Positions 60,291 through 64,000 of a DNA stretch of 64,000 nucleotides are shown here, piece by piece. The position numbers and the translations under genes were made by a program. Under the pieces are notes generated by a model that saw nothing but the letters and a program-made list of their open reading frames with translations, did not search any database and was not told the origin of the DNA. Location: NCBI RefSeq assembly GCF_001544355.1, contig NZ_BCQI01000014.1:1-64000 (forward strand), given 5' to 3'. This DNA comes from Alicyclobacillus acidiphilus NBRC 100859. GTDB lineage: Bacteria; Bacillota; Bacilli; Alicyclobacillales; Alicyclobacillaceae. Positions within the stretch are counted from its first letter, which is position 1. Every line of letters starts with the position of its first letter.

Positions 60291-60388
60291 GCTTGAAGGG
60301 AGGGATGCGGGGCGAGAGTAGCAATATCGCCCAAAACGAGTAGAATGTCGCAAGGCCGGTGAATATGACACACCCGGCTCGCGAAGAA

Positions 60389-60557
60389 GCGCCTGGACTG
60401 TGCAGCCGTTGGCCCTTGCTGGTCAAAGTACAGCGGCTCCACAGTTGACGCGGAGGAGGTTGGCGAACCATTCGGCGGGTGCCTCCCGGTGTTTTCCGAT
60501 CACACCGCAAGCGAAACCTGAAAGCCACCGGGCGACTGGTGTGACAAGGGTGAGCGG
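60389..60557 (+). ncRNA. glmS ribozyme-riboswitch
   Basis: This untranslated region of glmS carries the hallmarks of the self-cleaving ribozyme that is activated by glucosamine-6-phosphate. The cleavage site would be between A60388 and G60389 in AAGCGCCTGGACTG. ACTGTG and AGCCG (60397-60408) pair with CGGCT and CACAGT (60434-60445) to form the P2-type stem. The core GTTGACG (60444-60450), GGCGGGTGCCTCCCGG (60474-60489) and the later CACACC/GGTGTG stem follow in the usual order. Cleavage exposes the mRNA to RNase J and lowers GlmS when amino sugar is plentiful. The 3' limit is approximate. Confidence 0.88.
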
Positions 60558-60582
60558 ATCGGCAAGGAGGAAACGTATATCC

Positions 60583-62412
60583 ATGTGTGGCATTGTCGGT
60601 TACATTGGCCCGAGGAATGTGAAAGACGTCGTTGTTGGTGGACTCGCGAAGTTGGAGTATCGCGGGTACGATTCATCCGGAATCGCGGCGATTGATGACG
60701 GACGCATCGAGTTGGCCAAATCGGTCGGACGCCTGTCCAATCTCGAAGCGAGGTTGGAAGAGCATCCGATTGGCGGCCACGTGGCCATTGGACACACGCG
60801 TTGGGCGACACACGGCAAACCATCGGACGAGAACGCGCATCCGCATCAGGACTGCAGCGGTCGTTTTGCGCTGGTGCACAACGGGATCGTCGAAAATTAT
60901 CTCAGTCTGCGAGAAGAGTTGATAGCGTCCGGACACGAGTTTCGATCCGAGACGGATACAGAAGTGGTTGTCCACTTGATTGAAGAACTGTACAACGGGG
61001 ATCTGTTTCAGACGATGATTGCGGTCGGCAAACGTATTCGCGGCGCTTATGCGCTTGTCGTGATCTCGAAAGATCATCCGGATCAAATCGTCGCGGTTCG
61101 CAAGGCCAGTCCGATGATCATCGGCTTGGGCGACGGCGAAAACTTCGTTGCCTCGGACATCCCAGCAGTGCTGCAGTACACGCGCGACATTTACGTCATG
61201 GAGGACGGCGAGATGGCGGTCCTCACGCGCGATTCGGTCGAGTGCTTCACCTTGGATGGCGAACCGGTGGCCAAAGAGGTCTATAAGGTCACGTGGGACG
61301 CTGTCAGCGCAGAGCGCGGGGGGTATCCCCACTTCATGCTCAAGGAAATTCACGAACAGCCGAAGGCGATTCGTGACACCTTGCGCGGTCGAGTGAATCC
61401 CGATCTCGGCTCGGTCACGCTCGACGAACTTGGCATCGACGCCGAGACCGTGAAGGCCATGGATCGAATCCACATCGTCGCGTGTGGCACGTCTTGGCAC
61501 GCTGGCCTGGTGGGGAAGGTCGCGATCGAACAATTGGCCCGAATTCCGGTCAACGTCGAGATTGCCTCGGAATACCGATATTCCAACCCGATCGCGACGC
61601 CGAACACGCTGGTCATCGCCATCACCCAATCCGGCGAGACGGCCGATACGCTTGCAGCGATGCGCGAGATGAAGGCACGCGGTCTGCGCGTCCTGGCCAT
61701 CACGAACGTCGTCGGTAGTTCGGCGGCGCGCGAGGCCGACAACGTGATCGTCACATGGGCCGGCCCGGAAATCGCGGTCGCGTCCACGAAGGCGTACACG
61801 ACGCAGCTCGCGGCACTGTACCTGCTTGCGGTTCACTTTGCGCAGGTTCGTGGTGAAATCGGCGAGCAGGCGGCCCACGACATGATCAACGCGCTCGACA
61901 ATCTCCCGCAGGTCGCCGAGGCAGTGCTCGACACGGCGCCGCAGATTCACGCGTTCGCGCAAAAGTACGCGGAGTCGAAGGATACCTTCTTCATCGGCCG
62001 CGGGATCGACTATGCAGTCTCGCTCGAAGGCGCGTTGAAATTGAAGGAGATCTCGTACATCCACGCCGAGGCGTACGCGGCGGGCGAACTGAAGCATGGT
62101 ACGCTGGCGCTCATCACGGAGGGGGTTCCCGTCGTCGCGATCGCGATGCAGCCAGACCTTTACGAGAAGACCGTGAGCAACATCGTCGAGGTAAAGGCGC
62201 GCGGCGCGTTTGTGCTGGGACTGACATGGGTCGGCAACGAAGACCTCGCGAAGACGGTGGATGAGGTCATCTATCTGCCGAAGACGCACCCGACGCTCGC
62301 GCCGTTGGCGGCCGTGATACCCTTGCAACTGCTGGCGTATTACGCGGCCGTCGCGCGCGGCAACGACGTCGACAAGCCGCGCAATCTGGCGAAGAGCGTG
62401 ACCGTGGAGTAA
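60583..62412 (+). CDS. glmS: Glutamine-fructose-6-phosphate aminotransferase
   Basis: GlmS (609 residues) makes glucosamine-6-phosphate, the first step to UDP-GlcNAc. The N-terminal glutaminase uses Cys2 (MCGIVGYIG) with GHTRWATHG; two SIS domains form the isomerase, with HIVACGTSWHA and AITQSGETADT, and the C-terminal YAAVARGNDVDKPRNLAKSVTVE is complete. ATG 60583 follows AAGGAGG. The frame stays open upstream to 60400, through the ribozyme, but that region is not coding. No firm terminator was seen after the stop. Confidence 0.97.
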   Translation: MCGIVGYIGPRNVKDVVVGGLAKLEYRGYDSSGIAAIDDGRIELAKSVGRLSNLEARLEEHPIGGHVAIGHTRWATHGKPSDENAHPHQDCSGRFALVHNGIVENYLSLREELIASGHEFRSETDTEVVVHLIEELYNGDLFQTMIAVGKRIRGAYALVVISKDHPDQIVAVRKASPMIIGLGDGENFVASDIPAVLQYTRDIYVMEDGEMAVLTRDSVECFTLDGEPVAKEVYKVTWDAVSAERGGYPHFMLKEIHEQPKAIRDTLRGRVNPDLGSVTLDELGIDAETVKAMDRIHIVACGTSWHAGLVGKVAIEQLARIPVNVEIASEYRYSNPIATPNTLVIAITQSGETADTLAAMREMKARGLRVLAITNVVGSSAAREADNVIVTWAGPEIAVASTKAYTTQLAALYLLAVHFAQVRGEIGEQAAHDMINALDNLPQVAEAVLDTAPQIHAFAQKYAESKDTFFIGRGIDYAVSLEGALKLKEISYIHAEAYAAGELKHGTLALITEGVPVVAIAMQPDLYEKTVSNIVEVKARGAFVLGLTWVGNEDLAKTVDEVIYLPKTHPTLAPLAAVIPLQLLAYYAAVARGNDVDKPRNLAKSVTVE

Positions 62413-62438
62413 GCTGGGGACTTTGCGCGGGTGAATTT

Positions 62439-63260
62439 GTGTTCGCAAAATCAAGTTCTTCCCCGCGCAAAATAAGTTCTTCCCTTAGTAAAATAAGTTG
62501 TTCCGTACAGCACGGGTGAATTCGGGTCAAAAGCCTGGATTCGCCCGTTCTTTTTGTGGAGCGGGAGCGATAAGCGGGGGAAACTCAGAGCAAAATTTTG
62601 AAGGAGACCAGACGCGAAAAAGCCCGATATATCAAGGATTCCAAGACCATGCCCGATCAAAAACGCGAAAAAATACACGACAAAATCTGTACTCCCTGCG
62701 CCCTCAAGCCCTTCACTTCGCCCTCGCGCCAGCGAACAACTTCATTTTACGCAGAATCGATGAATCTGGAAAAATCACGGAGAAAAACGGGTGAGGAAAG
62801 GCGTGATCCAGGGAAGGATCGAATTTGACGGCAGATATTGGGAGAGAGCAGTGTGTTCGCAAAATCAAGTTCTTCCGCCGCAAAATAAGTTGTACTCTGA
62901 GTAAAATAAGTTGTTCCCTACAGCACGGGTGAATTCGGGTCAAAAGCCTGGATTCGCCCTTTCTTTTTGTGGAGCGGGAGCGATAAGCGGGGGAAACTCA
63001 GAGCAAAATTTTGAAGGAGACCAGACGCGAAAAAGCCCGATATATCAAGGATTCCTCGACCATTCCCGATCAAAAATGCGAAAAAATACACGACCAAATC
63101 TGTACTCCCTGCGCCCTCAAGCCCTTCTTTTCACCCTCGCGCCAGCGAACAACTTCATTTTACGCAGAATCGATGAATCTGGAAAAATTACGGAGAAAAA
63201 CGAGTGGTAAGAGGCGTGATCCAGCGTAGAAATTCATTTGACGGCAGATATTGGGTTAGC
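62439..63260. repeat. 413-base tandem direct duplication, gene-free
   Basis: Two adjacent copies start at about 62439 and 62852, with the same order of motifs throughout (TGTTCGCAAAATCAAGTTC, a CACGGGTGAATTCGGGTC segment at 62511 and 62924, ACAACTTCATTTTACGC, ATTTGACGGCAGATATTGGG). Overall identity is high, with scattered substitutions and short indels. A degenerate third remnant (GGGAAGGATTTGATTTGACGG) lies near 63328-63350. No plausible gene covers the block on either strand. It is not recognised as a known mobile element, and no terminal inverted repeats or transposase were seen. Confidence 0.88.
62445..62510. repeat. Triple 21-22-base repeat at the head of each 413-base copy
   Basis: GCAAAATCAAGTTCTTCC, GCAAAATAAGTTCTTCCC and GTAAAATAAGTTGTTCC follow one another about 22 bases apart at 62445-62505, and again at about 62859-62918 in the second copy. 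They resemble iterons by size and number, but are AT-rich and lack an associated replication gene. Confidence 0.7.
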
Positions 63261-63639
63261 GTGAGAAAAAGTCGAGAAAAGCCAGGCGTGGCAAGGGATT
63301 TGGAGTGGTTGAGGCGGGAGTGAGTCAGGGAAGGATTTGATTTGACGGTTACATAGTAGGGACGCAGAATTTTGATTCGAAAAGTCATGGGTTGGATTCG
63401 AAGTGGGGGTAGGGAGAAAGCAGGGTACAGCGCGGCATATAGCCTACTTCCACGGGGACATGTGAGACGGTCATGGCTGGGGTTGTACGGAAGGAACGAT
63501 CAGCACCGCCGTTGTGTCGAGCAGTATGAAAGTCTTCTCTGACATTCGACATCATTGCCATTGTGATCGGATCACTTGTGGCTACACTGGAGAACGGTGC
63601 ATCGTTGGCTATAAGCATGTAATCGGCAATTGAGGCAGA
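63261..63639. other. Gene-free stretch before the final gene
   Basis: Nothing reliable is coded here. A minus-strand frame of 77 codons (63385-63618) has no binding site or recognisable motif. The only repeat feature is the decayed third remnant of the 413-base unit. Composition shifts here to more AT-rich than the ribosomal cluster. Confidence 0.5.
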
Positions 63640-64000
63640 TGTGCGATTACTGCTTGACCACTATCTATAAAGCGTTGTGTGCAGGATTCGACAATGTTAA
63701 CAAAGAAATTAAAGACCTGATTGTGACGGCTACGGAGGTTGAATATTTCCCCTGTTCATTAACGAGATGGTGGGATACACCTCCTACCTTAGAGCGGTTG
63801 GTCAGCATTGCGGATTTTGTGAGGTGTGAGAACGTGGAAGACAGCGACCGTCAGTCACTTCAACAACAGGTGACTTCTCTTAGAGCGCAAGGAAAATACA
63901 AAGAGACCATCGAGGCTTGCTTCGATCTCTTGAAACGCGGAGAGGAGAAAAACGATTATAAATCCGTCCTGATTGCATACTTGAACAGCGCGGCATCTTA
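63640..64000 (+). CDS. Unknown protein, 3' part beyond window
   Basis: From ATG 63640 a frame of 120 codons stays open to the window end. The visible protein starts MCDYCLTTIYKALCAG, with a CxxC near the N terminus, and continues with predicted helices; residues from about 80 (QQQVTSLRAQGKYKETIEACFDL in part, then LIAYLNSAAS) have the rhythm of a TPR-like helical repeat (A/Y/K pattern AQGKYKETIEACF). GAGG four bases before the ATG is a close, weak binding site; TTG 63631 is an alternative. Lower GC than its neighbours and location after repeats suggest an accessory gene. Function unknown. Confidence 0.6.

Follow-up and report, generated by a model that had tools for sequence, protein, structure and literature searches.

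The tandem repeat beside glmS in an Alicyclobacillus genome is probably the terminus of a Tn7-like island inserted as a natural cointegrate

The tandem repeat that directly follows glmS in an Alicyclobacillus genome is probably the glmS-proximal terminus of a Tn7-like island, which would have formed as a natural cointegrate by way of a TnsA protein unable to cut. As far as the anatomy of the genomes tells, islands of this kind probably spread by being copied into place and not by cut-and-paste transposition. The stretch of DNA analysed here, which we call the window, comprises 64,000 nucleotides (contig C14:1-64000) of a 3.86-Mb Alicyclobacillus draft genome.

An earlier note on the window described a gene-free 413-base unit, duplicated head to tail and bearing a triple subrepeat at the head of each copy. 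Both repeats are confirmed. Positions 62438-63255 form a head-to-tail repeat of 413/414 bp (period 413, 93% matches) with 95% identity across 300 bp, far above chance, and each copy is headed by three direct repeats of about 21 bp, at 62444, 62467 and 62488 in copy 1 and at 62858, 62880 and 62901 in copy 2. The tandem repeat is real, yet it is not gene-free filler, and 413 bp is the spacing from head to head, not the length of the element. An alignment of 18 units defined the full unit, hereafter U, as about 502 bp, running from TGTGTTCG at its start to ...GATTTGACGGTTACA at its end. Copy 2 (62852-63353) has the full 502 bp, while copy 1, opening at 62438 with TGTGTTCGCAAAATCAAGTTCTTCC, is an older U that was shortened when copy 2 inserted into it, with AGCAG at the joint. 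The first base of copy 1 lies 25 bp past the glmS stop at 62412, that is, at attTn7, and in several relatives the distance from glmS to the element is likewise fixed at about 25 bp, with the right end toward glmS. The border that had been proposed here, where the conserved block ends with glmS and accessory DNA starts at the unit, is thereby upheld, and so is the suggested integration hot spot, which proves to be a mobile element end at attTn7; the reading as a decayed gene array is wrong. Reading frames of 98/99 aa in both copies were rejected as coding, for indels among relatives break them, and a non-coding RNA in the unit was also rejected, as Rfam gave no match there and only the glmS ribozyme upstream.

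The architecture of U is that of transposon ends (Table 1). When copy 2 was scanned with a matrix made from the right-end sites, direct TnsB-type sites were found at unit positions 7, 29 and 50, with a pitch of 21 bp, and inverted ones at 295, 374 and 478; the scores of the latter were reached by none of 1000 Markov resamples of the U tail. The members of repeat family D3 (63317-63348, 63213-63244 and 62800-62831) are inverted left-end TnsB-type sites, so that the supposed decayed third copy near 63340 is instead the outermost such site in the left end of copy 2. Terminal inverted repeats had also been thought absent, but TGT...ACA tips and inverted TnsB sites are present. These predicted sites of about 20 bp form arrays that abut at the right end and are spaced at the left, and the plan of Tn7 is the same, with abutting right-end and spaced left-end TnsB sites (PMC11406308). 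Copy 2 of U is a complete miniature transposon with a Tn7-type right end and left end.

Table 1. Coordinates and strands of the features of the window around the glmS-proximal terminus
Feature	Position	Strand	Remarks
glmS ribozyme	60377-60565		upstream of glmS; Rfam
glmS	60583..62412	+	Pfam SIS + GATase; Tn7 attachment site at its 3' end
attTn7 spacer, glmS stop to element	62413..62437	+	GAATT, its last 5 bp, borders on the element
U copy 1, right end of the older element	62438..62851	+	interrupted near unit position 409 (AGCAG); lacks last ~95 bp
Three abutting direct TnsB-type sites, right-end type, copy 1	62444-62462, 62467-62484, 62488-62505	+	
Intrinsic terminator hairpin, copy 1	62512..62548	+	16-bp stem, T run; z -4.25
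Inverted (left-end) TnsB-type site, copy 1	62733..62751	-	
Inverted (left-end) TnsB-type site, copy 1	62812..62830	-	
U copy 2, complete 502-bp mini-transposon	62852..63353	+	TGTGTTCG...TTACA; right end + terminator + left end
Three abutting direct TnsB-type sites, copy 2	62858..62918	+	matrix scan
Intrinsic terminator hairpin, copy 2	62927..62959	+	z -4.29
Inverted TnsB-type site 1, left end of copy 2	63146..63164	-	matrix scan
Inverted TnsB-type site 2, left end of copy 2	63225..63243	-	matrix scan
Inverted TnsB-type site 3, left-end tip of copy 2	63329..63347	-	matrix scan
Backbone segment x, conserved after the glmS-side unit in relatives	63354..63600	+	begins TAGTA
Cargo start, TPR-GGDEF protein	63630..64000, on to C14:65276	+	homologues by units in relatives

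U further contains a hairpin with 14-16 pairs and T residues behind it (z about -4.3), the pairing of which is kept through sequence changes in relatives. We considered whether it is the core site of a tyrosine recombinase and rejected this, because a terminator accounts better for its G-U pairs, its compensatory changes and the run of T. Where the site is empty, in the relative G008, glmS has a terminator about equally strong, which starts about 11 bp after the stop and covers the insertion point, so U plausibly provides a replacement terminator. A conserved gene downstream of glmS, tried as a marker of the empty site, was abandoned because no such gene is conserved throughout the genus. Unrelated Tn7-like right ends at glmS also have a hairpin and T run just inside their TnsB-like sites (G003 C1:395140-395240, G005 C1:490090-490200, G007 C1:351280-351440); terminators are suggested to be a general feature of ends inserted at attTn7. 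At the left edge of the window there are, in addition, short tandem repeats with units of 52 bp, 12 bp and 16 bp (342-498 and 640-676).

The head-to-tail position of the window copies could also come from a plain local tandem duplication of neutral DNA by glmS in one strain. This reading has next to no probability, given that the unit occurs in 23 of 41 Alicyclobacillaceae genomes, that copy 2 shares 92% identity with copy 1 but 98% with a copy on contig C77 of the same genome, and that TnsB sites and 5-bp duplications are present. In the window's own genome the unit lies at two other places, on contigs C77 and C112, and within the genus it is found in 10 of 15 genomes. Across the family the number of matches per genome is low (1-7). 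The lineage-specific dispersed element that had been offered as one interpretation is borne out by the family-wide occurrence, and a unit confined to this locus and strain is excluded.

In relatives the unit has two settings, one on the glmS side, followed by the conserved segment x, and one on the far side, where ...CTGTTCTA precedes it and unrelated DNA, frequently an interrupted gene, comes after it. The TPR-GGDEF gene after segment x has homologues beside units in G003, G011 and G019 (69-87% identity). Every complete element examined holds 40-86 kb of cargo and tnsABCD between two direct copies of U. Eight complete elements were compared: those of G003, G006 and G032, whose islands measure 65, 86 and 73 kb, and those of Clostridium bovifaecis, Metabacillus bambusae, G291, G186 and G099, which share the layout with an unrelated unit sequence. 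Within an element the units are identical, but for one base in one of the elements, whereas between elements they differ by 8-20%. The four unit copies of G003 are all 100% identical, the end units of G006 show 100% identity with one indel, and both copies of G032 give identical alignments to the query; 100% identity was likewise found between the end units of Clostridium bovifaecis (501 bp), Metabacillus bambusae (464 bp) and the complete Bacilli G291 (499 bp), G186 (608 bp) and G099 (463 bp). The only genes common to all eight elements are tnsABCD, and a replicating plasmid backbone was rejected, since no replication gene is common to them.

The target duplications tell what moves. A perfect 5-bp duplication encloses the whole element in five of the eight cases (G003 CCAAG, G032 GCTAG, Metabacillus GTACA, G291 GGATG, G099 TGTGT), and none was found around the whole element at G006, Clostridium and G186. 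The island of G003 splits another unit at CCAAG. In G007 a solo U interrupts a gene between flanks that form a CCGAC duplication, and deleting this U together with one CCGAC restores a frame of 242 codons. Because duplications surround both unit pairs and a solo unit, we conclude that U can move and that an island enters whole, in a single event. For the window's island, the far end of which is unassembled, the expected duplication is not common to C77 and C112, the candidate distal ends. The solo U of G007, with a target duplication of its own in a genome without a close TnsB, would also fit a non-autonomous Tn7-like MITE that moves in trans, so that the bracketed islands came about by chance MITE insertions on either side of cargo. 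That is very improbable: the U pair of each complete element is in the same orientation and mutually identical, the inner flanks are conserved (left CTA, right TAG), copy number per genome is low and, what strongly disfavours it, the duplication encloses the pair and not each U. Across distant elements the inner flank on the left ends with CTA in 6/8 and that on the right begins with TAG in 7/8. The DNA just inside the units is a conserved inverted repeat, for instance CCTGTTCTA and TAGTACAGG (L007 12646-12669; window 63354-63363), and the unit sequences themselves cannot be aligned.

Elements of this kind were often seen to have inserted into the end unit of a predecessor of their own type (G003, G004 C24, G027 C32, G036, and the window at 62852). 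Tn7 shows target immunity, and insertion into like end units seems to go against it. As for cargo, an apparent BREX gene set, identified by eye on the size and sequence of its proteins, is carried by four islands of different genera (G003, G099, G186 and Metabacillus). On contig C112 (L008, 2709-4793) a CBASS-like pair, namely a DncV-like nucleotidyltransferase with AGS_C and a SAVED protein, adjoins a distal unit, the tail of which abuts a TetR gene apparently cut at its 5' end.

The transposition genes lie outside the window, on another contig of the same genome, and the statement of the earlier note that there is no transposase is wrong in this respect. Contig C77 carries tnsA, tnsB, tnsC and tnsD 4.4 kb upstream of its copy of the unit. 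Pfam recognises TnsA_N/C, Mu-transpos_C, TniB/AAA, TnsD and TniQ on this contig, and the TnsA and TnsB proteins match those of Tn7 with E values of 1.7e-41 (1F1Z) and 6e-108 (7PIK), respectively. At least two more tns sets are found in this genome, G000 (C90 3917-6096 and C42 22366-24210); in one of them tnsB is split across two frames (78% identity), and the other is of a distant type (39%).

The active site of Tn7 TnsA consists of E63, D114 and K132. Among Alicyclobacillaceae elements of this Tns type, T takes the place of D114, and in the other U-bracketed elements residue 114 (Tn7 numbering) is T, S or N; E63 is retained in the window's species and is Q in some relatives. The tnsA reading frame is intact in all eight elements, and judging from these residues the TnsA of U-bracketed elements would be inactive as a nuclease. 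Layout and residue go together. Counting complete cases only, identical bracketing repeats occur in 8/8 Asp114-less elements versus 0/6 elements with Asp114, and none of the eight complete Asp114-less elements has the plan of one right end and one left end without long terminal direct repeats, as each bears U at either terminus. The D114 relatives G228, G094, G191, G223, G195 and G289 have no long direct repeats of identical sequence around tns, nor were such repeats seen in Lysinibacillus, Cytobacillus, Mesobacillus and Thalassotalea (D114), where the ends are partly covered. In G061, 193 bp of repeat at a contig edge are consistent with the bracketed layout; G229 and Aneurinibacillus are drafts and stand outside the count. 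In the tree the loss of Asp114 has one origin (single clade, support 100/99), so that the agreement of residue and layout amounts to a single evolutionary coincidence.

Cut-and-paste movement of a composite transposon was weighed against this. Here the outermost right and left ends would be used, and RecA gene conversion would keep the U pair identical. Duplications of 5 bp around whole islands are expected from cut-and-paste as well, recombination can keep long direct repeats uniform in bacteria, and the intact tnsA frames in 8/8 elements agree with it. However, the TnsA of every U-bracketed element lacks Asp114, the layout goes with the Asp114-less clade, and TnsA active-site mutants are reported to abolish cut-and-paste (PMC8188705, PMC8649781). 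We regard this alternative as unlikely, because it needs a TnsA activity against which these sequences argue.

The reading as natural cointegrates draws on the known behaviour of TnsA active-site mutants, which give cointegrates. With TnsA D90A of the V. cholerae CAST, more than 95% of the products were cointegrates, in which the donor backbone is flanked by duplicated mini-transposons (PMC8188705), and by analogy the island layout is exactly that of this product. In the part of Benler et al. consulted (PMC8649781), replicative transposition is inferred for tnsA-less Tn7-like branches and point mutations of tnsA are said to leave it intact; the U-bracketed layout is not described there. The simplest course of events for natural cointegrates would be as follows. 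An older U would have stood at attTn7, and a second element, led by its own U, would have inserted into it. Recombination between two U copies, by RecA or by the XerC/D-like recombinase beside tnsA in Alicyclobacillaceae elements, could free a circle with one U, containing the cargo and tnsABCD. TnsB, TnsC and TnsD would insert the circle at glmS, to which TnsD would target it, or elsewhere; with a TnsA that cannot cut the second strand, TnsB would join U to the target replicatively, and the circle would enter as a cointegrate in the order target-U-cargo-U-target. A fresh insertion would thus be bracketed by a new pair of identical U and flanked by a 5-bp duplication, a solo U would be the scar once the circle is released, and the terminator of U would stand in for the glmS terminator parted from its gene by the insertion.

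The XerC/D-like recombinase lies upstream of tnsA in those Alicyclobacillaceae elements in which that region is assembled (loci L007 on C77, 90-980; L054, 2-355; L062, 1-504). It is about 76% identical even where TnsA/TnsB are just 39% identical, so it appears to be kept or swapped independently of tns. None was found in Metabacillus or Aneurinibacillus, and Clostridium has one that is distant and unlinked to tns. A tyrosine recombinase was rejected as the general cause of the layout, as the layout occurs in its absence in Clostridium and Metabacillus, and it cannot be the general resolvase because it is absent outside Alicyclobacillaceae. Among open-access papers, we found nothing on Tn7-like elements with a tyrosine recombinase in Alicyclobacillus.

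Several known systems share part of this anatomy. Like Tn7, the islands have a glmS-proximal right end with abutting TnsB sites, spaced left-end sites, TGT...ACA tips, a 5-bp duplication, TnsA/B/C/D homologues and insertion 25 bp past glmS; unlike Tn7, each island terminus is a full right plus left end in a direct repeat of about 500 bp, the tns genes lie outside the mini-transposon and TnsA is without Asp114. The V. cholerae CAST TnsA D90A and ShCAST (PMC8188705) have a predicted product identical to the islands, with the backbone between two direct mini-transposons; those systems are engineered or tnsA-less and were seen with plasmid donors, whereas here a natural clade keeps the TnsA frame with the residue lost and the bracketed form is found in genomes. 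The replicative Tn7-like branches without tnsA but with a tyrosine or serine resolvase (clades 2 and 3 of Benler et al. 2021, PMC8649781; Tn5053) are comparable in the replicative route, which would also apply to the islands, and in Alicyclobacillaceae elements a tyrosine recombinase lies next to tnsA. The islands differ from those branches in that tnsA is present and degenerate at its active site, the transposition genes lie outside the replicated unit, the stable form after insertion seems to be the cointegrate, and the recombinase is absent from relatives of the same layout. Identical long direct terminal repeats and a solo-repeat scar with target duplication recall LTR elements and IS composite transposons, but the islands involve no reverse transcription, and their repeat is a Tn7-type RE-LE pair without its own transposase.

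Loss of cutting by TnsA has previously been studied as a laboratory mutation or as absence of the gene; the islands belong to a natural clade with a lost active site and genomes that carry the predicted cointegrate product. We lean towards the view that a Bacillota clade of Tn7-like elements abandoned cut-and-paste and that its members persist as stable unresolved cointegrates, in which a gene-free mini-transposon of about 500 bp transposes, the island including the transposase genes is the donor backbone dragged in, and exit takes place by recombination between the identical ends. If this is true, the islands resemble integrative elements that enter by means of a transposase and leave by recombination. 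It would explain how islands of 40-86 kb, with defence and other cargo, enter at glmS. Programs that search for ends may misplace the borders of such islands, for which TnsA residue 114 is a simple marker, and these TnsABCD sets may insert whole circles.
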